DNA from: Herpetosiphonaceae bacterium
GTDB taxonomy: Bacteria > Chloroflexota > Chloroflexia > Chloroflexales > Kallotenuaceae
DNA length: 34,553 bases
Direction of reading: 5' to 3'
Assembly (NCBI GenBank): GCA_036374795.1
Contig: DASUTC010000340.1
Location: 1-34,553 of the forward strand
Shown: one piece after another, positions 5,797 to 25,586 of the stretch
How positions within the stretch are numbered: the stretch's first letter is position 1
How the letters are laid out: the number at the start of each line of letters is the position of its first letter
The notes under the pieces: generated by a model
What the model was told of the DNA's origin: nothing
Databases searched by the model: none
Seen by the model: the letters and a program-made list of their open reading frames with translations, nothing else
Position numbers and translations under genes: made by a program

Positions 5797-5878
5797 AGCG
5801 AACCTCGCGCATCGAGCAGCCCCGTCGTATCGATCTGGTGGCGCATGGGTTTACCGATAATCCCAGATTCTTCATAGC

Positions 5879-9263: not shown

Positions 9264-10949
9264 CTACTCGAAGTAGCCCAGCGCCCGCAGCCGGTCCCGG
9301 ATCTGCGCCTCGTCCTCAGCCGACATCTCTTCCTCGCCGAAGGCCAGCGCGTGCTCGCTCGGCCAGTACTCCATCGGCGCGCCCTGCCGCACCGGCTGCG
9401 CCGCGAGGCGTTCTGCGACAAATGCCCCGGCGATCACACGGCCATCCATGTCCGATGGGATCGGCAGGCCCAGCGCATGGAGCGTCGTCGGCGCTACGTC
9501 CTCGATCTGCAAGCCTTGCAGCGGCTCCGCCTGAGCGCGCATGCCCGGCCCGTGCGCGATGAAAATGCCCTGGCTGCGGTGCTTGGCCGGTCCCGACGCG
9601 ACCGGACGCCTGGTGACAACCGAGCTGTAGCTGCTGAGGTAGTAGCTACAGCCGTAGTCGGGATCGAGAATCGCGATCAGGTCGGGGATACTCGCTCCCG
9701 TCGCGCCCTGGTAGTAGTCGCTGCCGCGAAAGACGCGCTGGACGATGCGCTTGCCGGTTTCGGGGTCGGTGATCTCCAGCAGCTCGCCCATGATCGCCTG
9801 GGCAAGCGCGGCCTGCTCAGGCTCCGGCACCCGCAGCCGAATGCCCATGATGTTATAGAAGATCGGCACGCAGTACGCCTGGCTGCGCTCCAGGTCGACC
9901 GCCGTGGTGCGGCGATTGGCCGCTTTCCTGATCAGCGTGCTGTCGGCCAGGCCCGGTATGCGGTGGATCAGCCTGCCGATCTTGTCCCTGGACAGGCCCA
10001 GCCGCTTGAGCCAGTGATCGGGGCTGGCGAGCGTCGTGCCGCTGGCGCGAGCGGCCAGCCAGCCGCGCTGGTGCAGCCAGTTGTTGCAGTGGAAGCGCCT
10101 CGTCTCGACCGGTCCCATGCCGTGGTCGGACATGACTAGCGTTACGGTCTGCTCACCCGCGCGCGCTACCAGCTCCCCGACGATCTCGTCGAGCCGGACA
10201 TACACGTCGCGGACGGCCTGGCACAACTGCTGAACGTCAGGCGGGTCGTCTGGCTGTGGCGAGCGGTGGTAGGGCCAGAGATAATGGCCCATGCGGTCGG
10301 TGCTGGTAAAGACCACCATGAAAAAGTCCCACGGCTCCGACTCCATCAGCTCAAGGCTGACCGTAGCGCGTCGCTCCTCCATCTGCCGAAACTCCTCGAC
10401 CAGCGCCAGGCTCGGCGCGGTCAGCTCCGGCTCGAAGGTATCGACGTGCGGCGTTTTGTCCATGAACCGTTCGAGATCGATCTGATACTCGGCCAGCCGC
10501 GCCGAAAGCTCAGGCGGATGGGTAAAGACCGGCGCGCTGCTCGGCGTCAGCAGGCCGGTGATCATCACGCCGTTGACCGGGCGCGGCGGGTAGGTCAGCG
10601 GAATATTGACCAGCACGACATGCTGATCGTGGTGCGCGATCACGTCCCACAGCGCCGGAGATTTGAGGCTGCGCGCGCTGACCAGCTCCGGCTCGCTCGC
10701 GGTCGGAGCGTCGTCGTCGAAGAGCTTGACGAAGTGATAGACGCCGTGCTTGCCGGGCCGCTTGCCAGTCATGAACGTGCTCCAGGCCGCAGCAGTGATC
10801 GGCGGGATGCTGGAGTGCAGCGCGCCCCAGCTTCCCTGCTGGCGCAGCCGGGCCAGATTCGGCAGCGTCCCATCGCGCATCCAGGGATCGAGCACATCCC
10901 AGGTAGCGCCATCAAGACCAATGATCAAGACTCGGTTTGGGGTCTGCAT
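9264..10949 (-). CDS. Alkaline-phosphatase-superfamily protein (type I phosphodiesterase/nucleotide pyrophosphatase type), copy C
   Basis: About 561 residues. The metal-site residues of the superfamily are visible: D13 in IIGLDGATWD, a candidate nucleophile T52 in IPPITAAAWSTFMTG, D218 and H222 in TDRMGHYLW, D275 and H276 in SDHGMG. There is no C/S-x-P-x-R sulfatase motif, so it is not a formylglycine sulfatase. Family members hydrolyse phosphodiesters, nucleotide pyrophosphates or phosphonates; the substrate here is unknown. The C-terminus ends in an acidic segment plus RDRLRALGYFE (about residues 536-561), the tail also found on the APS kinase of this operon. Start at ATG 10949, with GGAGG 5 bases upstream; the upstream ATG at 11000 lies in a repeat-containing gap. 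No signal peptide is apparent, suggesting a cytoplasmic enzyme. Confidence 0.87.
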   Translation of the reverse strand: MQTPNRVLIIGLDGATWDVLDPWMRDGTLPNLARLRQQGSWGALHSSIPPITAAAWSTFMTGKRPGKHGVYHFVKLFDDDAPTASEPELVSARSLKSPALWDVIAHHDQHVVLVNIPLTYPPRPVNGVMITGLLTPSSAPVFTHPPELSARLAEYQIDLERFMDKTPHVDTFEPELTAPSLALVEEFRQMEERRATVSLELMESEPWDFFMVVFTSTDRMGHYLWPYHRSPQPDDPPDVQQLCQAVRDVYVRLDEIVGELVARAGEQTVTLVMSDHGMGPVETRRFHCNNWLHQRGWLAARASGTTLASPDHWLKRLGLSRDKIGRLIHRIPGLADSTLIRKAANRRTTAVDLERSQAYCVPIFYNIMGIRLRVPEPEQAALAQAIMGELLEITDPETGKRIVQRVFRGSDYYQGATGASIPDLIAILDPDYGCSYYLSSYSSVVTRRPVASGPAKHRSQGIFIAHGPGMRAQAEPLQGLQIEDVAPTTLHALGLPIPSDMDGRVIAGAFVAERLAAQPVRQGAPMEYWPSEHALAFGEEEMSAEDEAQIRDRLRALGYFE

Positions 10950-10992
10950 CGCTTCCTCCTCGCGATCGGCGCAGGATATGAGCCGTCTTTGC

Positions 10993-11078
10993 GAGAACAA
11001 AGAACAACGAAACAGAGAACAAACAGGAAGCCAGTTCTGTGATGCGTTTTGTTCTGTGTTCTGTGTTTAGCTGTTCTC
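10993..11078. repeat. Degenerate 7-base tandem repeats with inverted arms
   Basis: The left arm on the plus strand reads agaacaa, agaacaa, cgaaaca, gagaaca, aacagga; the right arm reads gttctgt, ttgttct, tgtgttc, tgtgttt, agctgtt, ctc. The arms are roughly complementary (GAGAACA at 10993 with TGTTCTC at 11072-11078), so the transcript could form a long imperfect hairpin. It fills most of the 133-base gap between the sulfotransferase stop (11083) and the phosphodiesterase start (10949). Confidence 0.65.
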
Positions 11079-11808: not shown

Positions 11809-13376
11809 CGTGGGCGGGCCTTTCTGCTCAAGCGTCGTCGCAGGTGGGCGAGCACAACCCGATCTTCCGAGGTCAGTCCCAGGCCAAGGATCAGGCCGAT
11901 GTAGATCGCCAGCAGCAGCGCGCTCTGGAACGCCGCGTACAGCAGATCGGCGCTGCCGGGCGACCAGTAGCCGACGATGAGCGCCGCGCCGAGCGCCGCC
12001 CCGCCTGCCGTCAGCGGCTTGATAAAGCTTCGGTCATAGGGCAGCAGCCGGAACAGCCAGAAGACCTGGATCAGCCGCAGCAGGTTCGTCACGCCGACGA
12101 CGATCAGCACCGACAGCCCCGCGCCGACGATGCCCCATGCCGGGATTAGCAGGAAGCTCAGCGCCACCGAGAGCGCCAGCCGCACGATGTTGTTGATCAG
12201 CTTGAGCGTCGTGTGGCCGGTCATATCGAGGATCAGCCCGCACATGCCCGTGCTGACATCGACCATGATCGCGCACGCGATCAGCGTCAGCGTGGTCGCG
12301 CCCGTCACGAAGCTTTTACCGAACAGGCTAAGGATCTGCGTCGGGAACAACACCAGGATCAAAAAGACCGGCAGATTAACCGTCAGGCTCCACTTGGTCG
12401 TCGTCTGGTACATGCGGCCCATCTGCTCGCGCTCGCCCTGGTCGTACAGCTCAGAGATGATCGGTCGCGAGGCGGTGGCAATCGCGCTCTGGAACATACT
12501 GCCGAACATATTCATCTGGTTGGCGACCGCAAAAATACCGACATTCGCGACACTGTTCAGCGCGCCGAGCATCAACGTCTGGATGTTGTCGCGAAAGGTC
12601 ATCATCAGATCTGATAGGAAGACCGGCACCGAGAAGCCGAAGATCTCGCGCGGCTCGTGGCGCGCTGTGCGCGGCGACCGCCGCAGCGGAAACAGGTTGT
12701 TCAAGAAGTAGAGCAGCATCACGCAGCCAACGGCCACGCCGATGCCCATCGTCGCGAGCGCGCGCGCCGGGTTGAGTCCCACCACCACGAGGACGATCAC
12801 CAGCACGAGCCTGATCAGCGGCTGGAAAAAGTCCTGCGCGATGGTCGCGTACCGCATCGTCTTGAAGCCCCTGGTGGCGGATGCGGCCATGTTGCTCAGC
12901 GTCAAGACAGGGACGATCAGGCTGGCGATGCGCAGCAAGGGCGCTAAGCGCGGCTGGTGGAAGATCTCGACAGCGATCGGCTGCGCCAGAGCAAACAGGG
13001 CGGCGCTGAGCGCGAGGCTGAGTAGCGTGGAGAGGCCGAGCCCGATCTGGAGCACGCCCCACAGTCGCGCCTCGTCCCGCCGACGGGCGAAGATCGGAAT
13101 ATAGCGCACCAGTGTCGAGTCCATGCCGAAGGCCGACACAGCGGCGACGACCGAGAGCGCGGTGAGCGCGAGGTTGTAGAGGCCGTACTGCCCGGCACCC
13201 AGCGCGCGCGCCAGCACGAAGGTGATCACCAGACGGCAGCCAAAGGTAAAGAGCTTGCCGACAAAGGTGATCGCGCCGCCCTTCGCGGCGAGGAGTACAT
13301 GCTGCTCCACGATTGGCCCGTTGAGGCCGTTGCCGCGCGCCGCGCTGTCGGATGCCTCGAACACCGAGCTACTCAT
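11805..13376 (-). CDS. Polysaccharide flippase (Wzx-like, MOP superfamily)
   Basis: A 523-residue membrane protein with about 14 predicted membrane segments and a Lys/Arg-rich cytoplasmic C-terminus. The N-terminal region (AAKGGAITFVGKLFTFGCRLVITFVLARALGAGQYGLYNL, about 30-68 read in pieces) shows the RxLGxxxYGLYxL signature of oligosaccharide and polysaccharide flippases of the MOP/MATE-like superfamily. It would move undecaprenyl-linked repeat units across the cytoplasmic membrane. The ATG at 13376 overlaps the end of the Wzz-like gene by 8 bases, with AAAGGG 8 bases upstream. Partner genes in the operon are the Wzy-like polymerase, Wzz-like co-polymerase and the initiating sugar transferase. 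Confidence 0.9.
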   Translation of the reverse strand: MSSSVFEASDSAARGNGLNGPIVEQHVLLAAKGGAITFVGKLFTFGCRLVITFVLARALGAGQYGLYNLALTALSVVAAVSAFGMDSTLVRYIPIFARRRDEARLWGVLQIGLGLSTLLSLALSAALFALAQPIAVEIFHQPRLAPLLRIASLIVPVLTLSNMAASATRGFKTMRYATIAQDFFQPLIRLVLVIVLVVVGLNPARALATMGIGVAVGCVMLLYFLNNLFPLRRSPRTARHEPREIFGFSVPVFLSDLMMTFRDNIQTLMLGALNSVANVGIFAVANQMNMFGSMFQSAIATASRPIISELYDQGEREQMGRMYQTTTKWSLTVNLPVFLILVLFPTQILSLFGKSFVTGATTLTLIACAIMVDVSTGMCGLILDMTGHTTLKLINNIVRLALSVALSFLLIPAWGIVGAGLSVLIVVGVTNLLRLIQVFWLFRLLPYDRSFIKPLTAGGAALGAALIVGYWSPGSADLLYAAFQSALLLAIYIGLILGLGLTSEDRVVLAHLRRRLSRKARPR

Positions 13377-14526
13377 GGTCCGCGCCCTTTGCCATACTGA
13401 GCTGGTACGTCGCCAGGTTGGGCAGCACAGGATACACGGTGCCCCGCGCGGCAGCCTCGGCCTCCTGGAGCGCGCGCCTGGCGATGCCGACCAGCTCCTC
13501 CGGCTTGATGTCGGGATGCCGGTAATCGGCGCAGCCGACGAGCGCCTGGAGATTCAGCGTGGCATCATGGTGCGCCAGCTCAAGCGGCATGGCTGTCAGC
13601 CTGGCCTGGAGCTGGCTCATCGTCTCGATCGCGCGCTCTGCCGGGGTGTCAAGCAGCAGCACGGCGAAGGTCGTATCGTCGAAGCGGGCCAGCACGTCTT
13701 CTTCACGCAGCGCCGCAGCGAGCAGCAGCGCGACGCGCCGTAGGGCTTCGTGCCGGAGCTGCGCAGGCAACCCTGCCAGAGCCTGCTGGCGGTCGATGTT
13801 GATCAAGGCCAGCGTGAGCGGCGCGCTATTGCGTCTGCTGCGCGCGATCTCCTGACGCAGCCGCAGCTCGAAGTAGCGCCGGTTATAGACCTCGGTTTCC
13901 TGATCGAGGATGTTAAACGCGACGATCTGCTGGCCGGGAGCCTGCAAGTAGGCCGAGAGCAGGGCAAAGCCCGCGCCCAGCACAAGGCCCATGATCCCGC
14001 CGAGCGCCAGATTCAGCGGCTTGTTCGGGCTGATCGGCGTGCTCGGCGAGTTGGCCCGATCGAGCGGCTCCAGCTTATAGGTTTCGTAAAGGTCCTGAAC
14101 GTAGGCCACGGTTTTTACGCCGACGGCGTTGGTCATGTTGCGCGCCAGGACTCGATCGTGCGCCTGGGTTGAGATCTTAAGCACATTGGTTCCCGGTATT
14201 AGCTGGCTGGTAATGCTCACATCGCCGCGCTGCGCGCTGGTCAGGCCAAGCTCGCTGGCTGCGAGCTGCTTGATCAGACGGCTATCGGCAACCTGCGTGA
14301 AGGTCGTGCCGATCTCGGTGCGGCGGCTCAAAATATCTACCGCCGCCGCCAGGTCTTTGTCGTTGCGAAATGCAGGACTCAGCTTGACGACAAACGTGGC
14401 GCTGCTTTCGTAGAGCGGAGCCTGCGTAAAGGTAAAGTAGAGCGTTGCGGCGTAGGTGATCGTGAGCGTCAGCAGGACGATCCACCATTTTCGTCGCAGG
14501 ATGCTGAGATAGGCTCTTAATTCCAT
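13369..14526 (-). CDS. Wzz-type chain-length regulator fused to a degenerate GGDEF domain
   Basis: About 385 residues. Residues 1-195 have the chain-length-determinant layout: MELRAYLSILRRKWW at the start, a first membrane helix (15-33), an extracytoplasmic region and a second helix (about 173-194) preceded by a Pro-rich PSTPISPNKP stretch typical of Wzz. Residues 204-370 match a GGDEF domain: a VYNRRYFE start, ALINIDR at 240-246, then RFDDTTF at 281-287 (bases 13666-13686) where RxGGDEF is expected. Losing GG and the catalytic Glu means diguanylate cyclase activity is unlikely; the domain may bind nucleotide or c-di-GMP, or act only in protein contacts. Start at ATG 14526; an upstream ATG at 14625 overlaps the neighbouring gene. 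A fusion of polymer-length control and a GGDEF-like domain implies direct signalling input to export. Confidence 0.85.
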   Translation of the reverse strand: MELRAYLSILRRKWWIVLLTLTITYAATLYFTFTQAPLYESSATFVVKLSPAFRNDKDLAAAVDILSRRTEIGTTFTQVADSRLIKQLAASELGLTSAQRGDVSITSQLIPGTNVLKISTQAHDRVLARNMTNAVGVKTVAYVQDLYETYKLEPLDRANSPSTPISPNKPLNLALGGIMGLVLGAGFALLSAYLQAPGQQIVAFNILDQETEVYNRRYFELRLRQEIARSRRNSAPLTLALINIDRQQALAGLPAQLRHEALRRVALLLAAALREEDVLARFDDTTFAVLLLDTPAERAIETMSQLQARLTAMPLELAHHDATLNLQALVGCADYRHPDIKPEELVGIARRALQEAEAAARGTVYPVLPNLATYQLSMAKGADHE

Positions 14527-14593
14527 GGTGCCTGCCTTTTGCCTGGACGGCGATTGGGAGCCTCTGGACCGGCGGTGGTAGCGTGCGTGCCGA

Positions 14594-15676
14594 TCAGTAT
14601 TCGATCTTAAGCTCAACGCCGCCATTCACCAGCGACCGCTGTGCGGTTTCCAGCGCTTTGATGACCTTAATGCCGTCCTCTCCATCGCTGCGGGGGGTCG
14701 TGCGGGTGCGGATGCAGTGGAGAAAATGCTCACACTCACGCTGGAGCGGCTCGACCCAGGTGAGCGGATAGACCAGCTCCTCGCCGTGGCGATACGAGGC
14801 ATGAAACTCTTCTTCGGTGATCGAGTACGGCGGTATTTCGATGCCTTTGTCGTAGATCACCACTTTGTCGTCGGCAATATCGTCATAGACCAGCATCTTC
14901 TTGCTGCCGACGACCGTCAGCCGCCGACGCTTGACGGGCGATAGCCAGCTCAGCCGCAGGTTGGCGACCACGCCGTTTTCAAAGGTCAGGTTGACGTAGG
15001 CGACCTCGTGCAGGCCGCGCCGGGCGTTGACAAAGGCCGTACCCACCGCGCTGACTTTCACCGGGTCCACGCCGAGAATGAAGCGGATCATCGAGATGTC
15101 GTGCGGCCCCAGGTCCCAGATCACGTTGATGTCGGGCTGGAGCAGGCCCAGGTTGGCGCGGGTCGAGTTGAAGTAATAGACATCGCCTAGCTCGCCCGAC
15201 TGGACGATCTCGCGCACGGCCTCGACCGCAGGGTTATACTCGAATGTGTGGCCGACCATTAGCGTCAGCCCGCGCTCAAGGGCCAGATCGGTCAGCTCGC
15301 GGGCCTGGCTGGACCACGCCGTCAGCGGCTTCTCAACCAGCACGTGCTTTCCGGCGAGCAGCGCGGCCTTTGCCAGGTGGTAGTGCGCTTTGACCGGCGT
15401 GGCGATGATCACGGCGTCAATGCCAGCCGCCAGCAGTTCCTGGTAGTCTCTGGTGACGGCTACCTCCGGGTAGAGCTGCTTGATACTGGCGAGCCGTTGC
15501 TCCTGAAGATCGGCCATCATCGCCAGATGCGAGCCGGGCAGATCTTGAAAGTTGCGGGCCAGCTTCGGCCCCCAGTAGCCGCACCCGATGATCCCGATCC
15601 GCACCTGCTCGACGAACTGCGGCTCAGGCGCAAGGGCGATATGCTGCCGCTGAGCCGTAAGGGTCATGCTCATCAT
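14594..15676 (-). CDS. Gfo/Idh/MocA-family nucleotide-sugar oxidoreductase
   Basis: A 360-residue protein with an N-terminal NAD(P)-binding Rossmann domain (RIGIIGCGYWGPKLARN, glycine motif at 29-36), the family EKPL motif at 115-118 whose Lys takes part in catalysis, and the C-terminal alpha/beta dimerisation domain with DLGPHD at about 188-193. WlbA/WbpB-type relatives oxidise C3 of UDP-GlcNAc-derived sugars to give a 3-keto substrate for an aminotransferase. That fits the DegT aminotransferase and NeuD-type acyltransferase upstream. Two ATGs in tandem (15676 and 15673) follow AAGGAGG; the first overlaps the stop of the sugar-transferase gene (ATGA). The exact sugar is not determined. Confidence 0.88.
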   Translation of the reverse strand: MMSMTLTAQRQHIALAPEPQFVEQVRIGIIGCGYWGPKLARNFQDLPGSHLAMMADLQEQRLASIKQLYPEVAVTRDYQELLAAGIDAVIIATPVKAHYHLAKAALLAGKHVLVEKPLTAWSSQARELTDLALERGLTLMVGHTFEYNPAVEAVREIVQSGELGDVYYFNSTRANLGLLQPDINVIWDLGPHDISMIRFILGVDPVKVSAVGTAFVNARRGLHEVAYVNLTFENGVVANLRLSWLSPVKRRRLTVVGSKKMLVYDDIADDKVVIYDKGIEIPPYSITEEEFHASYRHGEELVYPLTWVEPLQRECEHFLHCIRTRTTPRSDGEDGIKVIKALETAQRSLVNGGVELKIEY

Positions 15677-16368
15677 CCACCTCCTTTTCCAACCAGCATG
15701 ACGAACGGAGTGCGTAGGATGATGTAGAGATCAAGCCACAAGCTCATGGTCTCGATATAGTTGAGGTCGATCCGCACCATGTCGTCGAAGGAAACCTGAT
15801 TGCGGCCTGTCACCTGCCAGAGGCCGGTGATTCCAGGCAGCACGGCGAGGCGCTGCTTGTGCCAGTCATCGTACAGCGCGTATTCATACGGCAGCGGCGG
15901 TCGCGGCCCCACGAGGCTCATCTCGCCGCGCAGCACGTTGATGATCTGCGGCAGCTCGTCCAGACTCAGCGCGCGCAGCATGCGCCCCGGCTTGGTGACG
16001 CGCGGATCGCGCTTTAGTTTGAGCGAGCCCTGCCCCACGTCCTCAGGCCGGAGATTCTCGCGGATCAGCCGCTCGACGTGCGCGCGATGGATCTGGCTGG
16101 GGCTGCCGACATGCATCGAGCGGAATTTGAGCATCGTGAACGGCGTGCCGCCCTTGCCGAGGCGCTGCTGACGGTAGAAGATCGGGCCGGGCGAGTAGAG
16201 CTTGATCGCGACGGCGACCGCAAGCATCAGCGGGCCAAACAGCAGCAGCAGACCGCCCGCCAGGATCAGATCGACGGCGCGCTTCAGCCGCCGGTAGCCG
16301 GAGCCCCGCAGCGCGGATAGGCCGCGCGTCGGTGGTCGTGGTCGGATGCGTGTGTTGAGCTTCTGCAT
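15673..16368 (-). CDS. Undecaprenyl-phosphate sugar-1-phosphate transferase (bacterial sugar transferase family)
   Basis: About 231 residues of the WcaJ/PglC-type monotopic phosphoglycosyl transferase family. Seen: a basic N-terminus, one membrane-embedded hydrophobic helix (residues 32-56), FYRQQRLG at 64-71, KFRSM at 81-85, LDELPQIINVLRGEMSLVGPRP at about 136-157 (broken here by text length; key residues D137, E138, P156) and a C-terminal TGLWQVTGR stretch. These enzymes place the first sugar phosphate on undecaprenyl phosphate and so start repeat-unit assembly. It has the short form without the extra N-terminal four-helix domain of WbaP/WcaJ. ATG 16368 is preferred, with GAGG 8 bases upstream; an in-frame start at 16407 would overlap the aminotransferase gene. 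It is the only glycosyl-type transferase visible in the operon part seen. Confidence 0.92.
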   Translation of the reverse strand: MQKLNTRIRPRPPTRGLSALRGSGYRRLKRAVDLILAGGLLLLFGPLMLAVAVAIKLYSPGPIFYRQQRLGKGGTPFTMLKFRSMHVGSPSQIHRAHVERLIRENLRPEDVGQGSLKLKRDPRVTKPGRMLRALSLDELPQIINVLRGEMSLVGPRPPLPYEYALYDDWHKQRLAVLPGITGLWQVTGRNQVSFDDMVRIDLNYIETMSLWLDLYIILRTPFVMLVGKGGG

Positions 16369-16388
16369 AAGTCCCGCCTCGCCTCCTG

Positions 16389-17657
16389 TTAGCGTGGTGT
16401 CGCCCACGAGCCGCCGACCGGGATAAACGGCACGCTGGAGCGCGGAGCTGGCCCGCGATCGTCGCCGACCGCCCGCGCCTGAGCCGAGCGATCCAGATGT
16501 TTGGTCAGTTGCGCGCAGACGTAGTCGACCTGCTCTTCGGTGAGATGCGGAAACATCGGCAGCGACAGGATGCTCGACGCCGCCGCCTCGGATACGGGGA
16601 AGTCGCCCTGCTGCCAGCCCAGGTCGCGGTAGGCCGCCTGAAGATGCAGCGGAATCGGGTAGTGCAGCCCCAGGCCGATCCCCTGCTCGCTAAGCGCCTG
16701 GTAGGCCGCGTCCCGGTCGGCCAGCCGGATCACAAAGAGATGGTAGACGTGCCGCGATCCCGCAGGCTCGACCGGCAGCACGATGCGCTCGTCGCCCGCC
16801 AGCCGCTCGCGGTACCATGCCGCCGCCTGTCGCCGCCGGGCGTTCCACTCGTCGAGCTTGCGCAGCTTGATGTCGAGGATCGCGCATTGCAGCGCGTCGA
16901 GCCGCCCATTCCAGCCGTCGGGCGACACATGCACGTATTTCTGGCTCTGCCCATGATCGCGCCAGATGCGCATCGCCTGATCCTGCTCCGCGCTCCGGGT
17001 GATCACCGCGCCGCCCTCGCCGATCGCGCCCAAATTTTTGCCGGGGTAGAAGCTAAATCCGGCGGCCTCGCCCAGGGTGCCGACGCGCCGCGCGACGCCG
17101 TCGCTGGTGTAGCTCGCCCCGTGCGCCTGGCAGGCATCTTCGACGACGCAGAGCCGGTAGCGCGACGCAAGCTCCAGAATCGGCTGCATGTCGGCGGGCA
17201 GGCCATACAAGTGTACCGGCATGATCGCCGTCACGGGCCGCCTCGTCGCGCGGTTGATCAGCCGTCCATCCTGATCGACCCGGCAGCCCGTCGCGACAAA
17301 CTCGGCCAGTCTCGCGGGCGATAGCGTGTAGGACTCGCTGTCGACGTCCACGAAGCAGGGATGCGCGCCCAGCATGGTGATCGCCTCGACGCTGGCGATG
17401 AAGGTATTGGGAACGGTGATCACTTCGTCGCCGCGCCGGACGCCGCAGGCCATCAGCGCCAGCTTCAGCGCATCGGTGCCGTTGGCGCACGCGACGGCAT
17501 GGCGCGCGCCGCAGTAGGCGGCAAAGTGCTCCTCGAAGGTCGCCACGGCGTCGCCGCCGATAAACGCTGATTGGTCGATGATCGCATCGATCGCCTGCGC
17601 GATCTCGGCGCGCAGCTCGTCGTGCTGTGCTCGCAGGTCAAGAAACGGAACGTGCAT
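16389..17657 (-). CDS. DegT/DnrJ/EryC1-family PLP-dependent sugar aminotransferase
   Basis: About 422 residues. Seen: VPFLDLRAQH at the N-terminus, ANGTDALKLAL at 58-68, EDACQAHGA at 173-181 (Asp174 pairs with the PLP ring nitrogen) and GFSFYPGKNLGAIGEGG at 200-216, where K207 is the Schiff-base lysine. Such enzymes aminate keto nucleotide-sugars using Glu or Gln. With the Gfo/Idh oxidoreductase downstream and the lipoyl-NeuD acyltransferase just upstream, it completes an oxidise-aminate-acylate path like WbpB-WbpE-WbpD. The frame is open further upstream, but ATG 17657, which starts the conserved N-terminus and lies 5 bases after the preceding stop, is the sensible start. The C-terminal about 30 residues after LTKHLDRS are variable. 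Confidence 0.93.
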   Translation of the reverse strand: MHVPFLDLRAQHDELRAEIAQAIDAIIDQSAFIGGDAVATFEEHFAAYCGARHAVACANGTDALKLALMACGVRRGDEVITVPNTFIASVEAITMLGAHPCFVDVDSESYTLSPARLAEFVATGCRVDQDGRLINRATRRPVTAIMPVHLYGLPADMQPILELASRYRLCVVEDACQAHGASYTSDGVARRVGTLGEAAGFSFYPGKNLGAIGEGGAVITRSAEQDQAMRIWRDHGQSQKYVHVSPDGWNGRLDALQCAILDIKLRKLDEWNARRRQAAAWYRERLAGDERIVLPVEPAGSRHVYHLFVIRLADRDAAYQALSEQGIGLGLHYPIPLHLQAAYRDLGWQQGDFPVSEAAASSILSLPMFPHLTEEQVDYVCAQLTKHLDRSAQARAVGDDRGPAPRSSVPFIPVGGSWATPR

Positions 17658-17662
17658 AGCCC

Positions 17663-18820
17663 TCACCCTTTCGTCTCGACGGCTTCGCGCAGCGGCGTGA
17701 TCTCGACGTTGACGCGCGTTTTGGCCGCGTGCTGCGCCGGTACCGCTTGCGTCAGCACCGCGCCCGACGCGATCAGCGCGCCCTGGCCGATGCTGATATG
17801 TGGCTGAATGAAGATGCCGGTGCCCATTTTGACATCGTCGCCGACCTGCACACAGCCCGACGTAGCGACGCTCGGCCCGGTGGTGATGTGCGAGCCCCAC
17901 AGGTTATGATGATCGATGCTGTTGTAGGCGCTGATGAAGTTGTTGTTGCCAAGCCGCGTCTCGACGCCGAGATGCACAAAGGCGCAGATCACGTTGCCCT
18001 CGCCCAGCAGCACGCCGCGATTGATCCTGGCGCTGGGATCGATCGCGTTGACCAGCGGCATGTTGCAGCGTTTGAGCTGCTCGTACCAGCGGCGGCGTAC
18101 GCGGTTGGATGTCGAAACCGCGATGATCGCGGCGTCGCAGCGACCGGCGCGAAACCATTCTTCCGCCAGAGTGGATGGTCCGAGCACCGGCAGCCCGTAG
18201 ATCGTCTGGCCGTGCAGCGCGGCGTTGTCGTCGAGGTAGCCCATCACCTGCACGCGCGGATCGTGCGCCAGAATATCGACGACCTGCATCGCGCCGAGGC
18301 CCGCGCCCAGCACCAGCGTGCGCTGCACCCGCATCCGCGCATGGTCTACCGGATAGGCGCGCTGGTCGAGCGGCGAGAAGTAGGCGTCCTTGTCGTCGAT
18401 CAGCGGCAGCACGTCGCGCTCGGTGATGATCGATTTGGCCGGAAGCTGGCTCAGCGGAATCCGGTGCGCCTCGATCAGGTGCCGCGCCTTATCGGTGATT
18501 TTGCCGGGAAACGCCGCGAGCGGTGGCTGCTCCGCGCCGTTCGTCTCGGCGGTATGGAGCCGTTGGCGCGCTCCGGCTATCGCCTGCGGGCTGTCGACGA
18601 TCAGGCCGATCGCCACATTAAACGGGATCTCGCTGCCCTCGTCGCTGCCCCAGACCAGCCAGCCGTCGTCGGGAGCCTCGATCGCAAACACGACCTTGGT
18701 CGTCTCGACTTCGCAGATCTCCTGGTGCTGCTGCACGGGAGCGCCATCTGCAACCAGCCAGCGTACCAGCAGCGCCGACTCGCTGTTGACATCTTTTTGC
18801 GGGATCATCAGCGGGATCAT
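17663..18820 (-). CDS. Fusion: E2-type lipoyl domain + peripheral-subunit-binding domain + NeuD/PglD-type sugar acyltransferase
   Basis: About 385 residues. Residues 1-78 are a lipoyl domain: PQKDVNSESALLVRWLVADG, then EVETTKVVFAIEAP with K42 (codon 18695-18697) at the lipoylation position. Residues 104-141 (KITDKARHLIEAHRIPLSQL...IITERDVLPLI, in pieces) look like the E1/E3-binding domain of E2 proteins. From 164 on a PglD_N-like Rossmann unit (RTLVLGAGLGAMQVVDIL, GYLDD) leads into a left-handed beta-helix (about 260-370) with hexapeptide repeats and the SIDHH catalytic-His region (H304, codon 17909-17911). The E2 catalytic domain with HxxxDG is absent. ATG 18820 overlaps the E1-beta stop (ATGA). 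Inference: an acyl group made by E1 from a 2-oxoacid is carried on the lipoyl arm and used to acylate an amino sugar. It could alternatively still use acyl-CoA. Confidence 0.88.
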   Translation of the reverse strand: MIPLMIPQKDVNSESALLVRWLVADGAPVQQHQEICEVETTKVVFAIEAPDDGWLVWGSDEGSEIPFNVAIGLIVDSPQAIAGARQRLHTAETNGAEQPPLAAFPGKITDKARHLIEAHRIPLSQLPAKSIITERDVLPLIDDKDAYFSPLDQRAYPVDHARMRVQRTLVLGAGLGAMQVVDILAHDPRVQVMGYLDDNAALHGQTIYGLPVLGPSTLAEEWFRAGRCDAAIIAVSTSNRVRRRWYEQLKRCNMPLVNAIDPSARINRGVLLGEGNVICAFVHLGVETRLGNNNFISAYNSIDHHNLWGSHITTGPSVATSGCVQVGDDVKMGTGIFIQPHISIGQGALIASGAVLTQAVPAQHAAKTRVNVEITPLREAVETKG

Positions 18821-19863
18821 ATGCCTACTACCTTTGCGCCATGCACCATGCGTGTCGCCGCGCGCACCAGATCGATTTTCTGCGGCAGCGCGGCGTCTTC
18901 CAGTGGCCGCGTGCAGGGAATGATGCCGTCGGCGGCTGCCACGCGCTGGACGGGACCGCGAAGCTGCGTCCAGTAGCGCTCCTGCACCTGCGCCGCGACC
19001 TCCGCGCCCCAGCCGCCGGTGAGCGGCCCTTCTTCGACGACCAGCAAGCGCCCGGAGCGGGCCAGCGCTTCCGCCAGCCCGTGGTCGGGCAGCGGCTTGA
19101 TCTGGCATGGGATCAGCAGCTCGCAGCTTATTTCATGCTCAAGCAATAGTTGCTCGGCGGCCTGCATCGCCAGCGAGGTCATTCCTCCGTAGCACAGGAT
19201 CGTGACATCGCTATACTCGAAGTCGGTCAGCGATAGGTAGAGTGTGTCGAGCGGTGCGCTGCCCAGCCGCCTGCAACTAAAAAGATCGGCGAGTCCATGC
19301 TGGGGCAATGCATGGAACTCGCCATACAGGAGTTTATTCTCCACAAACAGCGTTGGCCCTGTGCCCTGAAGCGTGGCGTAGATCAGCGCCTCTCCCAGGT
19401 CGTGCAGGTGGCTCGGAGCCAGGATCGTCAGATCGTCGACCGACAGGAACAGCCGCTCCATGGTCTGGCTGTGCGTGGGGCCGTAGCCCCGTCGGCCACC
19501 CATCGGCGTGCGAATCACGACGGGGCAGCGGACTTGATCGTCGTACATCTGGCGGAATTTTGCCGCGTAGTTGATGATCTGATCGGCGCACAGCGTCAGG
19601 AAATCGCCAAACATGATCTCGACGATCGGGCGCAGGCCGCGCAGCGCCATGCCGTTGGCAATGCCGACGATCGCCGCCTCGCTGATCGGTGTCGTCAGCA
19701 CCCGCTCCGGCCAGCGCGTGCTCAGGCCGGTCGATACCTTGAACGCGCCGCCGTAAGGATCGAGAATGTCCTCGCCCAGCAGATACACCTCAGGATGCTC
19801 CTCGAAGAGCCGGTGCAGCGCCCGATTCAGAACATGTACACAGCGTTCGGTCCGATGAGTCAT
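18817..19863 (-). CDS. 2-Oxoacid dehydrogenase E1 component, beta subunit
   Basis: A 348-residue protein of the AcoB/PdhB/BkdB family. Seen: LLGEDILDPYGGAFKVSTGL at 28-47, TTPISEAAIVGIANGMALRG at about 57-76 (pyrimidine-binding Glu region of ThDP enzymes), the GDFLT and QIINYAAKFRQMY stretch at about 86-106, RTPMGGRRGYGPTHSQ at about 118-133, and the C-terminal transketolase domain ending in ALPQKIDLV. With E1-alpha it would decarboxylate a 2-oxoacid and reductively acylate a lipoyl arm. AGGA lies 7 bases before ATG 19863, and the stop overlaps the lipoyl-acyltransferase start. No E3 (dihydrolipoamide dehydrogenase) or ordinary E2 is in the window, so E3 would have to come from elsewhere. Substrate choice (pyruvate, branched-chain or other) cannot be read. 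Confidence 0.92.
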   Translation of the reverse strand: MTHRTERCVHVLNRALHRLFEEHPEVYLLGEDILDPYGGAFKVSTGLSTRWPERVLTTPISEAAIVGIANGMALRGLRPIVEIMFGDFLTLCADQIINYAAKFRQMYDDQVRCPVVIRTPMGGRRGYGPTHSQTMERLFLSVDDLTILAPSHLHDLGEALIYATLQGTGPTLFVENKLLYGEFHALPQHGLADLFSCRRLGSAPLDTLYLSLTDFEYSDVTILCYGGMTSLAMQAAEQLLLEHEISCELLIPCQIKPLPDHGLAEALARSGRLLVVEEGPLTGGWGAEVAAQVQERYWTQLRGPVQRVAAADGIIPCTRPLEDAALPQKIDLVRAATRMVHGAKVVGI

Positions 19864-19875
19864 CGTTCGTTCCTA

Positions 19876-20838
19876 CTACGTAATGGCCGGTACTGCCGGA
19901 AAAGCCGCCGCGCGTGCCTGCTCCACTGCCTGCGCGATGCGCGCCCTGACGTGCTGCTCGATGGTGTTGCGGCGATCGGCGTTGAGCTGCTGCGCAAGCC
20001 GCCGCAGCGGATCGCGCGCCTGCCACGCGGCGATCTCCGCACTGTCGCGATGATCGTCGCTCTTGCTGTGCGGGCAGAATCGGTAGGTGTCGAGGATCAG
20101 GCAGAATGGCTTGCGCTCGTGCTCGATATAGGCCCAGGCCTCTCCGGCCAGTCCATGAACATCCTCTACCGAGGCCGGGCGGCACTGCACTGTCTCGATG
20201 CCGAATGCCTGGGGCCGCGCCGCAATCTCGCCGCTGAGCTGGAGCCGCGACGGTGTGCTCTGGGCGTAGAAGTTGTTTTCGACGACGAACAGCATCGGGA
20301 GCGACCATAGCGCCGCGATGTTGAAGGTTTCGTAGATCACGCCTTCGCCGAGCGCGCCGTCGCCGATGAAGACGATGACCTTCGCGCCGGAGTGTTTCTG
20401 CTTTTCCGCCAGCGCGATGCCCGCCGCGCACGGCACGATCCCGCCGAGCACGCCGTTGGTGTAGAAGTTTCCGGCGCAGATATGCTGGCTGCCGCCTTTG
20501 CCGCCGCAGATGCCGCTCTCGCGGCCCATGATCTCCGCCAGCAAGCCGTCGACATCATCGCTGTAGGCCAGATAGTGCCCGTGGCAGCGGTGATTGCTGA
20601 AGACGATGTCGTCGCGCGTGAGATGGCTCAGCAGCCCCACCGCGTTGGCCTCCTGCCCGATGTAGGCGTGAGTGGTGCCGAAGAGCTGGCCCTCGGAGAA
20701 CAGCTCAAGCACGCGCTCCTCGAAGTAGCGGATCAGGAACATGCTGCGGTAAAACTGCTCTAGTCTGGCTGTCGCTAACGTCGATAGACGGCGCTGCTCA
20801 AGAGCAGCGATCGGATCTTGTTTGACATAATCAATCAT
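19876..20838 (-). CDS. 2-Oxoacid dehydrogenase E1 component, alpha subunit
   Basis: A 320-residue protein of the AcoA/PdhA/BkdA family. Seen: YFEERVLELFSEGQLFGTTHAYIGQEA (38-64, in pieces), the active-site region SNHRCHGHYLA at 81-91, GGKGGSQH at 112-119, and the thiamine-diphosphate motif GDGALGEG at 159-166 closing at ENN 187-189. The length and motif order match a complete E1-alpha. It binds ThDP together with E1-beta. ATG 20838 overlaps the stop of the upstream phosphatase-superfamily gene by four bases (ATGA); E1-beta follows after 12 bases. Placement inside a sugar-modification operon rather than with E2 and E3 is unusual and points to a dedicated complex with the lipoyl-NeuD fusion two genes downstream. 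Confidence 0.92.
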   Translation of the reverse strand: MIDYVKQDPIAALEQRRLSTLATARLEQFYRSMFLIRYFEERVLELFSEGQLFGTTHAYIGQEANAVGLLSHLTRDDIVFSNHRCHGHYLAYSDDVDGLLAEIMGRESGICGGKGGSQHICAGNFYTNGVLGGIVPCAAGIALAEKQKHSGAKVIVFIGDGALGEGVIYETFNIAALWSLPMLFVVENNFYAQSTPSRLQLSGEIAARPQAFGIETVQCRPASVEDVHGLAGEAWAYIEHERKPFCLILDTYRFCPHSKSDDHRDSAEIAAWQARDPLRRLAQQLNADRRNTIEQHVRARIAQAVEQARAAAFPAVPAIT

Positions 20839-22196
20839 GCGCTCAGGCTCCGTCCGTCCATGTCGTGCGGCGTCGGCAGATGCAGCAGGTCGAGGATCGT
20901 CGGCGCGACATCGGCGATGTGCGGGCGGCGCTCGATCGCGCGCAAGCCCTGGATGTACAGCAGCGCGTCCGGCGTGGTATGCATCCCGACCAGCGAGTCG
21001 CTTTTGAAGGTCAGGCGCGGCTTGCCGAACGGCCCCTTGGGATCGTAGCCGTCGCGCATCGCTACCACCAGATCGGCGGCGGCGGCGGCGTGCGGGCCGT
21101 GGTACAGCTCCTCGCGGGTGTAGACCCGCTCGACCATCGGCTCGCCTGTTGCCGGATCGACCATATCGACGATTGCCTCGGCGATCTCGCGGCGGATACG
21201 CTCGTACTCCGCGCCGGGCGTGATCTGGCCCTGCGGCTCGCGCCCCCGGACGTTCAGGAAGATACGGCCAGGATCGAGGCTGTAGGCCACGCTCGACGCC
21301 GCCATGTCCTGCAAGCGCTGCGGCTGGTCGCCGGCGTAGCGCAGGTAGCCCGCGTCGTGCAGCCAGGTGTTGAGATAGACCTCTTGCTTGATCGTGCAGA
21401 AGCCGTGGTCCGACAGAATCACCAGCGTAGTATCTTCGTCGAGCCAGCTACGAACCTCGCCGAGCACCTGATCGACGCGCCGGTAGAACTCCAGAAAGGC
21501 GGGAGCGTACGTCGCATGGCCCTGCTCCATCTCCTCCCAGAAGAAGTGATGCAGCCGATCGGTTTCCATAATGTGAACCATGAAGAAATCCCAGGCCTCC
21601 TGGCTCCAGAAGTAGCGCATCGCCGCGATCCGCCGCTCGAAGACCTCGTCGAGATGCGGCAGGAAGCTGGCTTTGTCGGCGCGTGCCCGCAGCGGATCGG
21701 CGTCCACGCAGTAGTTCAGCCGCTTGAGCGCCTGCGCGATCTCGGCGTTCGGCGCGGCCTTCTCGACGCTGGGGCTAAGGAAGCAGCCGACGACGATGCC
21801 GTTGACCTGGCGCGACGGATACGTTACCGGAACATTCATCGCGAAGACGCGCTTGCCTGCCGCGCTCAGCAGCTCCCACAGCGCCGGGCTGCGCATCGTG
21901 CGCGAGGTGGGGATGAAGGTCTTGAGCGATCCGGGCTGTCGATCGACGAAGCCGTAGATGTTGTGCTTGCCTGGATTCTGGCCGGTCATGAACGAGGCCC
22001 ACGCCACCGATGAGACGTTGGGGATGGTCGTATCCATCTGCGCCAGCGTGCCCTCGGCGGCAATCGCGCGAAAGTTCGGCAGCTCGCCCGCCTGGAACAA
22101 CTGCTGAATGTATGTGTAGGGCACGCCGTCGAGGCCGATCGCGACGATCCGCCGCTTGCGTCGTCGGCCACCCCGAAATACATCGCGCAAGTGCAT
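20835..22196 (-). CDS. Alkaline-phosphatase-superfamily protein (phosphodiesterase/nucleotide pyrophosphatase type), copy B
   Basis: A 453-residue protein. Metal-site and nucleophile residues of the superfamily: D23 in AIGLDGVPY, S62 or S63 in IPNVSSVAWASFMTG, TDRLHHFFW in the middle and LSDHGF, then a C-terminal His in VGMHTTPDALLYIQG. There is no sulfatase C/S-x-P-x-R. It is related to copy C (9264-10949) and to the C-terminal half of the ATP-sulfurylase fusion (22905-25586), sharing the order IPxxxxxAWxxFMTGxxPGxH, NVPVTYP-like and CFLSPS-like blocks. It lacks the LRxLGY tail of copy C. GGAGG lies 5 bases upstream of ATG 22196. Its stop overlaps the E1-alpha start. Substrate unknown; the basic N-terminus (residues 8-16) is not a signal peptide. 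Confidence 0.87.
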   Translation of the reverse strand: MHLRDVFRGGRRRKRRIVAIGLDGVPYTYIQQLFQAGELPNFRAIAAEGTLAQMDTTIPNVSSVAWASFMTGQNPGKHNIYGFVDRQPGSLKTFIPTSRTMRSPALWELLSAAGKRVFAMNVPVTYPSRQVNGIVVGCFLSPSVEKAAPNAEIAQALKRLNYCVDADPLRARADKASFLPHLDEVFERRIAAMRYFWSQEAWDFFMVHIMETDRLHHFFWEEMEQGHATYAPAFLEFYRRVDQVLGEVRSWLDEDTTLVILSDHGFCTIKQEVYLNTWLHDAGYLRYAGDQPQRLQDMAASSVAYSLDPGRIFLNVRGREPQGQITPGAEYERIRREIAEAIVDMVDPATGEPMVERVYTREELYHGPHAAAAADLVVAMRDGYDPKGPFGKPRLTFKSDSLVGMHTTPDALLYIQGLRAIERRPHIADVAPTILDLLHLPTPHDMDGRSLSA

Positions 22197-22281: not shown

Positions 22282-22908
22282 CTAGAGATACCCCAGATCG
22301 CGCAGCCGCTCGGTGACGGCTTCTTCTTCGTCGTCGGTGTAGACCATGTCCAGATCGGGGGCGGCTACCAGCACGAGCCGCTCGACATAGCCCAGATGCT
22401 CTAGCTTGGCGATCACCTTCGCCGCGCTCTGCTCCGGCGTTTCCCGACCGTCGCTGTAGCAGACGACCTCAGGATGGAAGGGCGGCTCGTAGGGGTCCGA
22501 CACGCCGGTGAAATTGCTGATCTCGCCGTTGAGCGCTTTGCGATACAGCCCTTTCACATCGCGGTCGGTCAGCGCCTCGATCGTGCAATCCATGTGGACC
22601 TCGACGAAGCGCCCGATCTGCGCGCGCACCTCGTCGCGGATCGCGCGGTACGGCGAGATCGCCGCGACGATCGACACCACATCGTTGCGCGTGAGCACCT
22701 CGCAGACCCAGCCGATCCGCCGAATGTTGGTGTCGCGATCTTCTTTGGAAAAGCCCAGCCCTTTGCTGAGATGGGTCCGCACGACATCGCCGTCGAGCAC
22801 CTCGACCTTATGCCCTCGGCTGCGCAGGTCCTCGGCGACGATCGCGGAGATCGTCGATTTGCCGGAGCCGGACAGTCCTGTGAACCAGATGGTGAATCCT
22901 GTTGTCAT
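22282..22908 (-). CDS. cysC: Adenylylsulfate (APS) kinase with an extra C-terminal tail
   Basis: A 208-residue protein. Phosphorylates APS at the 3' position to give PAPS, the sulfate donor for the sulfotransferases of this operon. Seen: Walker [10 protein letters not shown] at 11-19, [27 protein letters not shown] at 38-64 (in pieces), [12 protein letters not shown] at 84-95 with the family Ser, and DVKGLYRKA plus [11 protein letters not shown] at 118-143. The normal kinase core ends near residue 176. About 32 further residues form a hydrophobic strand and an acidic tail ending [17 protein letters not shown]; the same type of tail closes the phosphodiesterase at 9264-10949. ATG 22908 overlaps the stop of the ATP sulfurylase fusion (ATGA). 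Confidence 0.95.
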
Positions 22909-25586
22909 ACCGCTACCCCTGCTTGCAAATCGATCGGCCTGCCGCGAATCCCCTCCGGCGCGGGCTGGCCCAGCAGCGCCAGCACCGTCGGCGCGACATC
23001 GTAGATCTTCAGGTCGTCGAGCTGCCTGCCGCCGCCCGGATTGCGCGGATCGTAGAGCATGAAGATACCGTGCTGCGCGTGGTTCGCGTCGTCAGGCCCC
23101 GTGTCGTTCTCAAAGGTCCATACGCTCTCGTGGCCCACGCTGCCAACCGAGCGCCAGCTCAGGTTGCCAAAGTAGATGATCAGATCGGGCGGAATGTTGT
23201 TGAGCTGGGTATAGACCTCTTCCGGCTTGAAGGCGATCGTGCCGATGTTGCGACCGTCGGGATCGGCAATCGCGGCCAGCTTCTCGATCAGCAGCGCCCG
23301 CTCGCGCTCATAGTCCTGCGGCGGGATCACGCCGTTGGGCTCGCGGCCCTGCACGTTCATGAACAGCCGCCCATAGTAGCCGCCCGCGCCCCAGGCTTTG
23401 GTTCGCGTCCAGTCGATCTCGCACTTCTCAAGCGGCACGATCTGCGACGGCTGCTCTTTGAGCACCAGATAGCCCTCGCGGATCAGCCAGTCGTTGAGGC
23501 AGAGGCCGCCGACCATCGCCTTGCCGCCGTGGTCGGAGACGACCAGCACGATCGTGTCGTCGTCGATATACTCCAGCAGCCCCGCGATCTGCCGGTCGAT
23601 AAACACGTAGTAGTCGTGGATCGCCTGCTGGTAGCGGTTGCCCGGCACATGCTTGGGATGGGCGGGGTCCATATACTTCCAGAAGGCATGGTGGATGCGA
23701 TCGACGCCCATGTCGACGGTCATGAAGTAGTCGTACCGCTCGCGCTGGAGCAGGCGTCGGCAGATCGTAAAATGCTGCTCGGCCATGCGGTAGATGTCGC
23801 AGAGGATCTGATCTTTATTCTCCGAGCGAAAGTTGGGCACGTCCACCAGGAACTCGTCGCCGATCCAGCCCGCGATCTCGTGCTTTAGCTCCGCCGGATA
23901 GGTGTACTGGCTCTTCGCGCTCGGCGTCAGGAAACAACTGACCATGTGGCCGTTGACCGGCTGCACCGGGTAGGTCTGCGGCACGCCGATCACGCCGACG
24001 TGCTTGCCAGCATCGCTGAGCAGGTTCCACACGCGCGGATACGTCACCGCTTTGGCGTTGGCGATCGTCATGCGCTCGTAGGAGTAGTCCGCGCGGTTGC
24101 GAAAGCCGTAGAAGCCAAGCTGGCCCGGATCGCGTCCGCTCATCATGCAGGCCCAGGCGGGAACGGTGATCGCCGGAATCGTGCTTTCCAGCCGTCCGTA
24201 CGCGCCGCGCTGCATCAAGCCGCTAAGCGTCGGCAGGTCGGCCCGCCACGCATCGAAGACCAGCTCCGGCGCGGCACAGTCCAGACCGATCACCAGCATC
24301 CGCCGCTGGGCTTGCTCATCGCCGGTACTCGCCGCGACCATACGCGCCTCCTTTGTGCCGGGCTGCTCGGTGGGAGCAGGCGGCAGGTCCGTGTGCCCGA
24401 TCGGCTCTGCGCCGCGCGGCTCCCGCTGATAGGCTTCGATCAAGATCTGCGCAACTTCAGGGCGGCTATACTCAGGCGGTGGCAGCTCGCCACGGGCCAG
24501 CATCTCGCGCACTTTCGTGCCGCTCAAGATCAGGTGGTGCTCCGAGGTATGCGGGCAGGTCTTGTAAGACGCCATCGCATGGCACTTCTGGCAGTAGAAG
24601 GTATGCTCGAAAAAGAGCGGCGTAATGCCCAGCTCGTGCGGCGCGAACTCGTCGAAGATCAGCTGGGCGTCGTAGGTGCCGTAGTAGCTGCCGACACCGG
24701 CATGATCGCGCCCGACGATGAAGTGTGTGCAGCCGTAGTTCTTGCGTGCCAGCGCGTGGAAGATCGCCTCGCGCGGCCCGGCGTAGCGCATCGCCGCCGG
24801 GTACACGCCCAGGATCGTCCGATCGGGCGGGTAGTAGTCGCGCAGCAGGCTTTGGTAGGAGCGCATGCGTACGTCGGCGGGAATATCGTCAGCCTTCGTC
24901 TCGCCTACCAGCGGATGCAGGAACAGCCCATCAACGATCTCCAGCGCGGCCTTCTGGATATACTCGTGGGCGCGGTGGATCGGGTTGCGCGTTTGAAATC
25001 CCACGATCCGCCGCCAGCCGTTTGCGGCAAACATCCGTCGCGCCTGCGCAGGCGTGTGCCGAAACTCCGCAAACGCCGGGCTGGTCGGCGGGCTGATCAC
25101 CCAGATCTCGCCGCCGAGGTATACCTCGCCAGCCGCGTAGAGCCGCGCGACGCCGGGATGCCGCGCATCGGTGGTTTGAAAAACCTGCTGCGCCTCGTGC
25201 TCTTGGTCGGCGGCGTACTTTTCTGCCAGCTCAAGCAGCCCGATCAGCCGCTCGGCGCGATCGTACAGTGCGATCTCTTGCCCAAGCTCCAGCGTCGCCG
25301 CCTGCTCCCGCGTCACCGCCAGCGTGATCGGGATCGTCCAGGGAAGGCCGCTCTGGAGGTACATCTCCTCGACAACGCTCAGGTAGTCGGCCTGGCCCAT
25401 GAAGCCGGTCAGCGGGCTGAATGCTCCGTTGCCAATCAGCTCCAGGTCGGAGAGATTGACGCTGTTCAGCGTCAGCCGGGCCAGGTGAGCGGCGCGCTCA
25501 ATCGCCGCCTCGCGGAGCGTGCCCCGCACGGTGCGATCGATAAGTGTTCCGCCGTGAGGAGGAATCGCCGGAGTAGATCTCGCCAC
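22905..25586 (-). CDS. sat: ATP sulfurylase fused to an alkaline-phosphatase-superfamily domain, copy A
   Basis: An uninterrupted 893-codon frame. Residues 1-390 are a Sat-type ATP sulfurylase (ATP + sulfate to APS + PPi): GFMGQADY at 61-68, [11 protein letters not shown] at 198-208, GRDHAGVG at 292-299, a probable zinc site [15 protein letters not shown] at 332-346, and SGTKVREML at 355-363. A Pro/Glu-rich linker (390-425) leads to a phosphodiesterase-type domain: D436 in [11 protein letters not shown]474 in [29 protein letters not shown] and a late His in HAQHGIF. Translation starts at a GTG (25586) with AAGGAG 6 bases upstream. An internal ATG at 24341 (residue 416) has a near-perfect AAAGGAGG at 24347-24354, so the second domain may also be made alone. 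It is the first gene of the polysaccharide operon. Confidence 0.92.
24339..24354 (-). promoter_or_regulatory. Strong internal ribosome site and ATG inside the sat fusion gene
   Basis: On the minus strand AAAGGAGG (24354-24347), a 5-base spacer and ATG (24341-24339) lie exactly at the linker between the sulfurylase and phosphatase-superfamily domains, in the same frame. This would give a separate 478-residue product, or it is a relic of two formerly separate genes. Confidence 0.6.

Follow-up and report, generated by a model that had tools for sequence, protein, structure and literature searches.

A candidate lipoyl-fed sugar acylation system encoded by an E1 pair and a lipoyl–acyltransferase fusion in a Herpetosiphonaceae bacterium

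A 34,553-nt stretch of DNA from a Herpetosiphonaceae bacterium (contig DASUTC010000340.1, assembly GCA_036374795.1; the whole stretch is referred to as the window) was found to carry three coupled genes in which the E1-alpha and E1-beta subunits of a 2-oxoacid dehydrogenase are followed by a fusion of a lipoyl domain and a peripheral subunit-binding domain (PSBD)-like segment to a PglD/NeuD-type acyltransferase. The three genes probably encode a complex resembling a 2-oxoacid dehydrogenase, in which a nucleotide-sugar acyltransferase has replaced the E2 core and the acyl group loaded by E1 onto the lipoyl arm would be passed to an amino sugar. Sequence comparison and a structural model define the parts, their partnership, their conservation and their context.

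The coupling of the genes was as given in an initial annotation of this DNA: coordinates and Pfam matches, above cut-off for the E1-alpha, E1-beta, lipoyl, PglD_N and Hexapep domains alike, confirmed an E1-alpha/E1-beta pair separated by a gap of 12 bases (19864–19875) and an ATGA overlap (18817–18820) between E1-beta and the fusion gene. A DegT-family aminotransferase gene starts 5 bases past the fusion stop codon and E1-alpha shares an ATGA with an upstream phosphodiesterase gene (20835–22196), so that the three genes form part of a long series read in the same direction. A two-subunit transketolase was rejected because E1_dh far outscored Transketolase_N on E1-alpha (3.2e-55 vs 0.0012). An ordinary operon for pyruvate dehydrogenase (PDH) or branched-chain 2-oxoacid dehydrogenase with its E2 was also rejected because the 2-oxoacid_dh domain is missing: this catalytic core (PF00198) was absent from the fusion, in agreement with the initial annotation, and no E2 catalytic domain was found in the scanned window proteins.

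The fusion was modelled with AlphaFold2 from an alignment of 46 fusions, and the prediction for residues 1–385 was confident (mean predicted local distance difference test score 90.6). In the model a lipoyl barrel (residues 2–75) with K42 in a hairpin turn is followed by a long helix, the two PSBD-like helices (110–118 and 134–144), a low-confidence linker (145–160), the PglD_N domain and a left-handed beta-helix (LbH). The assignment of an E2-type lipoyl domain with K42 as its predicted lipoyl-lysine was borne out by the model as well as by the Biotin_lipoyl match (1.5e-8) and by conservation; the best-scoring model for this half of the protein was that of acetoin-dehydrogenase E2. The proposal of an E1/E3-binding-like segment at residues 104–141 was supported. 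A profile of the 46 fusions matched the PSBDs of the genome's own E2 proteins (hhalign E 1.4e-6, probability 81%, against at most 0.26% for 100 shuffles), but the segment, in which the usual G(S/T)GxGGR stretch is partly missing, did not reach the Pfam E3_binding cut-off. The acyltransferase half, described as a PglD/NeuD-type beta-helix with an SIDHH motif (H304 is its first H), was upheld in fold, motifs and PglD_N and Hexapep matches. However, the NeuD model TIGR03570 matched residues 168–364 (1.6e-40) at 138.8 bits, below its cut-off of 160.8, so that ‘NeuD-type’ is here a statement on fold and motif; relatives L035 (187.8 bits) and L038 (162.4) pass the cut-off. Foldseek and VIA-align, the latter covering mainly the beta-helix region, gave PerB (4eaa, Z 30.5), PglB (29.8), VioB (29.7) and PglD (26.9) as the top structures for residues 164–370, with LpxA and LpxD matching the fusion at Z of about 19–21.

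Recurrence of the set was explored by searching 400 Chloroflexota genomes with the fusion as query, and the same 400 whole genomes with an E1-beta alignment. Eight further full-length fusions (L034–L041) were recovered, seven of them adjoined by E1-alpha and E1-beta; the E1 of L034 lies on a different contig of the same genome (L181). E1-betas of the fusion-linked clade (threshold >550 bits) were present in exactly seven of the 400 genomes, at 571–602 bits and each with a fusion, and the remaining genomes gave 370 bits or less. Two genomes with an unfused main-clade NeuD (L161 and L165) had no clade E1-beta. By these scores the E1 pair, which belongs to a clade of its own, follows the fusion from one genome to the next.

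Next, seven fusion-linked E1-betas were aligned to scan a genome collection, and the best 80 of at least 548 loci were analyzed. E1-alpha was beside or near E1-beta in all 80 and the lipoyl-NeuD fusion was present in 67, across at least eight phyla, the hosts including Thermoleophilia, Opitutia, Planctomycetota, Nitrospiria, Syntrophaceae, Rhodospirillaceae, Polyangia/Myxococcales and Lujinxingia vulgaris. The 13 loci without a standard fusion comprised five that run off the contig, two with split or short fusions, five in which lipoyl-PSBD is fused to a different beta-helix acyltransferase, and one with a true E2 core. The order E1-alpha, E1-beta, fusion on one strand was kept in 62 of 74 three-part loci, with a single-chain E1 in eight more; E1-alpha and E1-beta were seen as one chain in L061, L070, L085, L093, L104, L109, L110, L117, L120 and L178. 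The arrangement is not unique to this genome, and chance is excluded because the architecture recurs in so many others.

The residues expected of a working E1 are retained. Equivalents of D167, H263, H63 and R90 in the thiamine diphosphate (ThDP)-binding motif and catalytic site are invariant, and that of N196 is mostly N or D. The substrate pocket of E1-alpha is changed at F61 and Y89, which we take to be PDH substrate-pocket positions: T and H replace them in 86 of 86 members, and the genome's own PDH-like E1-alpha (L167) retains F and Y. These changes suggest a non-pyruvate substrate or an altered pocket; reading the identity of the acyl group from them was rejected, as they say just ‘not plain PDH’. 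On the fusion, the K42 equivalent is kept in 75 of 75 proteins. It is preceded by T or S in 73 of these, and the two with D, L034 and L038, are those whose E1 belongs to another lineage in the E1-beta tree. Residues flanking the lipoyl lysine steer E1 recognition, and this covariation therefore fits a true partnership.

In the acyltransferase half the catalytic His is present in 112 of 112 domains compared (72/72 fused, 40 free), the Asp pair is conserved nearly always and the oxyanion Gly is kept; the roles of the His, of this UDP-binding Asp pair and of the Gly are assigned on the basis of the Pcryo_0637 structures (PMC8040287). In Pcryo_0637 a conserved proline flips from trans to cis upon binding of coenzyme A (CoA) (PMC8040287). 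This proline, in a C-terminal GxPA motif, is present in 36 of 40 free domains vs 3 of 72 fused ones, and is absent from the window fusion as from 69 of the fused domains. Its loss fits a changed acyl donor.

Phylogenetic trees were used to follow the two halves. In the NeuD tree, for which free NeuDs were sampled from Chloroflexota only, the fused domains grouped together (Shimodaira–Hasegawa-like approximate likelihood-ratio test support 92), and several independent fusions were not upheld. The unfused NeuDs of L161 and L165 are nested within the fused clade, making loss of the lipoyl domain and E1 partner probable there. In the E1-beta tree L038 forms a separate lineage. The same E1/lipoyl/PSBD platform carries a NeuD, a WcaF/maltose-acetyltransferase-type beta-helix or a true E2 core, and these partners are interspersed in the E1-beta tree, most clearly in a six-member Thermoleophilia/Actinomycetes group (support 99) in which NeuD and WcaF-type partners number three each; the acyltransferase has therefore probably been exchanged more than once.

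The WcaF-type arrangement, in which the same E1 pair precedes a lipoyl-PSBD fused to this other beta-helix, was seen in L047, L048, L051, L053 and L056; an extra C-terminal domain (motif like DSVREFCRKRGI), with no Pfam match where scanned, is present in L047, L048, L051 and L056. This branch is a possible O-acylating sister system. The 400 Chloroflexota genomes also yielded three E1-betas at 328–370 bits, two of which (L178 and L179) adjoin lipoyl-PSBD-E2 genes. Related E1s in L178, L179 and L070 stand beside such E2 genes, whose products share the short PSBD and the S/T-K lipoyl motif, and this E2 type is likely an ancestral CoA-acylating form or a reversal.

The genetic context points to amino sugars. 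The adjacent DegT and Gfo/Idh genes of the initial annotation were confirmed, and amino-sugar cassettes recur. E1-alpha is immediately preceded by a gene for an initiating polyprenyl-phosphate sugar-1-phosphate transferase (PHPT) in 17 loci, and the fusion is immediately followed by DegT in eight. Many Chloroflexota have the module PHPT, E1-alpha, E1-beta, fusion, DegT, which looks like a pglC/D/E bacillosamine cassette with E1 genes inserted. A UbiA prenyltransferase gene (Pfam UbiA) directly follows this module in L072 (9482–10486), and in L091 that place is taken by a gene whose start is almost identical (5605–6609). The window fusion belongs to a different clade, with L046, L057, L090, L122, L116, L099, L067 and L106, in which Gfo/Idh or PHPT recur (L122, L116). 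L038 has the whole window set reordered, as PHPT, Gfo/Idh, fusion, E1-alpha, E1-beta and DegT. The window Gfo/Idh is closest to the NCBIfam model for UDP-GlcNAc 3-dehydrogenase (NF040723; 186 bits, below the cut-off of 450), and the nucleotide sugar in window-type loci likely carries a 3-amino group, as in the GnnA/GnnB or WbpB/WbpE pathways.

A mechanism can be proposed in which E1 would decarboxylate a 2-oxoacid and reductively acylate the lipoyl arm at K42, and the arm would deliver this acyl group to the intersubunit cleft of the beta-helix, the CoA pantetheine site in free NeuD enzymes. The acyl acceptor would be a nucleotide-bound amino sugar provided by DegT, and in the window also by Gfo/Idh, with its amino group activated by H304; the beta-helix would accept acyl groups from the lipoyl arm as LpxA and LpxD do from acyl carrier protein (ACP). 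E3 would then reoxidise the dihydrolipoyl group, and PHPT would load the acylated sugar onto a lipid carrier for polysaccharide or glycan synthesis. Lipoyl synthase (two LipA above cut-off) and E3 (568 bits) are encoded elsewhere in the genome, which provides for synthesis and recycling of the lipoyl arm. Lipoylation, the E1 substrate, direct CoA-free transfer and the identities of the sugar and acyl group are what we infer here from sequence; the sequence-testable parts of this route, as put forward in the initial annotation, were all supported. With somewhat less assurance, we lean towards a multi-phylum system in which 2-oxoacid-derived acyl groups from a dedicated E1, held on lipoyl, would go CoA-free to nucleotide amino sugars (to hydroxyls, probably, in the WcaF type), with E1 setting the acyl group.

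Several observations weigh against such a route. Many main-clade loci had no recognised amino-sugar gene within the 6 kb viewed, and the module has no E3 gene, nor was one found among the scanned window proteins. The scan patterns were built from fusion-linked E1-beta and are biased toward that clade. The fused NeuD domains may share one origin, so that the correlated changes could represent few independent events. In addition, the CoA-type GxPA is retained in three fusions (L034, L038 and L076), and the proline is also gone from the unfused, lipoyl-less L161 and L165; its loss was for these reasons rejected as proof of CoA independence.

The three GxPA-bearing fusions would suit a local acyl-CoA channel, in which the lipoyl-held acyl group passes to CoA, through a housekeeping E2 or the beta-helix itself, and NeuD uses that acyl-CoA. 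Free PglD, PerB and Pcryo_0637 enzymes take acetyl-CoA as donor (PMC8040287), and ordinary E2s are present in this genome. However, the genome's matches to the 2-oxoacid_dh core sit on other contigs and neither fusion nor window has that domain, the CoA-linked proline is gone from nearly all fused domains, and a lipoyl-NeuD tether would be pointless were the product to leave for another E2; such a channel is unlikely, though the strongest of the alternatives. It is improbable that NeuD is an ordinary acyl-CoA-dependent enzyme whose lipoyl-PSBD part merely recruits E1 or E3 or senses redox state, the lipoyl acyl group going unused. L161 and L165 show that the lipoyl domain can be shed, but their genomes also lack the clade E1; moreover, the catalytic ThDP and His residues of E1 are kept in nearly all members and K42 is never lost.

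The invariant pocket difference from PDH raises another alternative, that the clade E1 cleaves acyloins as acetoin dehydrogenase does instead of decarboxylating 2-oxoacids, with lipoyl arm and NeuD acting as proposed above. The lipoyl half scores best with an acetoin-dehydrogenase E2 model, and His at the Y89 position is, we assume, an acetoin dehydrogenase feature. T at the F61 position presumably is not; the best-matching E1-alpha and E1-beta models are PDH-type and no acetoin genes were seen nearby, which leaves this option with slightly poorer prospects than the recruitment or redox role. That the fusion is a functionless accident of gene fusion or assembly was rejected as having practically no likelihood, the same architecture being found in dozens of independent assemblies, several phyla and gene orders with conserved active-site residues.

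Lipoyl-fed transfer to an amino sugar was compared with known systems. PglD, NeuD, PerB and VioB (TIGR03570; PDB 3bsy, 4ea7, 7txp, 4m98 and 7l7y) share with the fusion PglD_N and the LbH, the catalytic His, UDP-binding Asp pair and oxyanion Gly, and a PglC/PglE-like amino-sugar context. Unlike them, the fusion has an N-terminal lipoyl domain, a subunit-binding domain and linked E1 genes, most fusions lack the CoA-linked C-terminal proline motif, and the window protein falls under the family cut-off. With 2-oxoacid dehydrogenase E2 the fusion shares a lipoyl domain with modifiable lysine, a flexible linker, the PSBD and the position after E1-alpha and E1-beta, but a sugar acyltransferase takes the place of the 2-oxoacid_dh core, and the expected acceptor is therefore a sugar amine and not CoA. 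LpxA and LpxD are likewise beta-helix acyltransferases fed from a carrier-protein arm instead of free CoA, as proposed for the fusion; their carrier is a separate ACP with phosphopantetheine, whereas that of the fusion would be a built-in lipoyl domain charged by E1. Gfo/Idh, DegT and a beta-helix acyltransferase are common to the window, L038 and the GnnA/GnnB, WbpB/WbpE/WbpD and WlbA/B/C pathways, and L122 also has Gfo/Idh and the fusion; the acyltransferases of those pathways use acetyl-CoA or acyl-ACP and have neither lipoyl domain nor E1 genes. Lipoyl domains outside the classical complexes are found in the LbpA lipoate-binding proteins of the sHdr sulfur-oxidation pathway (PMC6067878), which differ from the present set in chemistry, partners and genes.

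Both halves are of known kinds; their pairing, with the E2 core replaced by sugar acyltransferases, is not a known one. No description of a lipoyl-fed sugar acyltransferase was found in the open-licence literature searched, in line with the initial annotation, and CoA-free transfer, were it shown, would make the system categorically new. If the proposal is true, lipoate would gain a biosynthetic role beyond central metabolism as a tethered, E1-charged acyl donor for sugars, and surface-glycan acylation would be decoupled from the CoA pool and tied to amino-acid-derived 2-oxoacids and the NAD+ state. This would explain how bacteria could install acyl groups that do not occur as CoA esters. Replacement of the E2 core by unrelated acyltransferases suggests that the E1/lipoyl/PSBD platform is modular and of use in enzyme engineering, and the function of many unannotated glycan loci of Chloroflexota, Myxococcota and Actinomycetota becomes testable.

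Table 1. Genes and protein features of the E1–fusion locus, in window coordinates (aa, amino acids).
Feature	Position	Strand	Evidence
E1-alpha, ThDP-dependent 2-oxoacid dehydrogenase type, 320 aa	19876..20838	-	Pfam E1_dh 3.2e-55; nearest solved structure human PDH E1-alpha 4.7e-38
E1-beta, 348 aa	18817..19863	-	Transket_pyr 2.2e-30, Transketolase_C 4e-23; PDB 1ik6 2.4e-47
Lipoyl-PSBD-PglD_N-LbH fusion, 385 aa	17663..18820	-	Pfam, NCBIfam, AlphaFold2, Foldseek/VIA
Lipoyl domain, aa 1-77	18590..18820	-	Biotin_lipoyl aa 14-55, 1.5e-8; Foldseek to human lipoyl domain 2dnc, TMt 0.70
K42 codon, predicted lipoyl-lysine	18695..18697	-	Kept in 75/75 fusions; model hairpin turn 40-43
PSBD-like domain with shortened loop, aa 104-146	18383..18511	-	hhalign to own-genome E2 PSBDs; helices 110-118, 134-144
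PglD_N nucleotide-sugar-binding domain, aa 166-251, with D197/D198 UDP-binding pair	18068..18325	-	PglD_N aa 169-249, 2.2e-7; DD column conserved
Left-handed beta-helix acyltransferase domain, aa 257-362	17735..18052	-	Hexapep aa 324-357, 3e-8; PerB/VioB/PglB/PglD matches
Predicted catalytic H304 codon	17909..17911	-	His in 112/112 fused + free domains; aligned with PerB His141
DegT-family aminotransferase	16389..17657	-	DegT_DnrJ_EryC1 5e-108
PHPT, initiating polyprenyl-phosphate sugar-1-phosphate transferase	15673..16407	-	Bac_transf 1.1e-63
Gfo/Idh/MocA oxidoreductase	14594..15676	-	GFO_IDH_MocA 6.7e-24

The window is a locus of the sulfated-polysaccharide type, with ATP sulfurylase, adenosine phosphosulfate (APS) kinase, three sulfotransferases and Wzx/Wzy-type genes beside PHPT, DegT and Gfo/Idh. 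The ATP sulfurylase (22905–25586, minus strand) carries a fused type I phosphodiesterase/nucleotide pyrophosphatase domain, and two further type I phosphodiesterases (20835–22196 and 9264–11000) accompany the APS kinase and sulfotransferases. In a single open reading frame at 13369–14625 (minus strand), a Wzz/GNVR chain-length-determinant region is fused with a GGDEF diguanylate-cyclase domain, which could tie cyclic di-GMP directly to polysaccharide chain length. Finally, an open reading frame at 32150–34456 (minus strand) combines methyltransferase, phosphopantetheine carrier and thioesterase domains and adjoins a PALP-type pyridoxal phosphate enzyme and a major facilitator superfamily transporter, forming a small locus resembling those for nonribosomal peptide synthetases.

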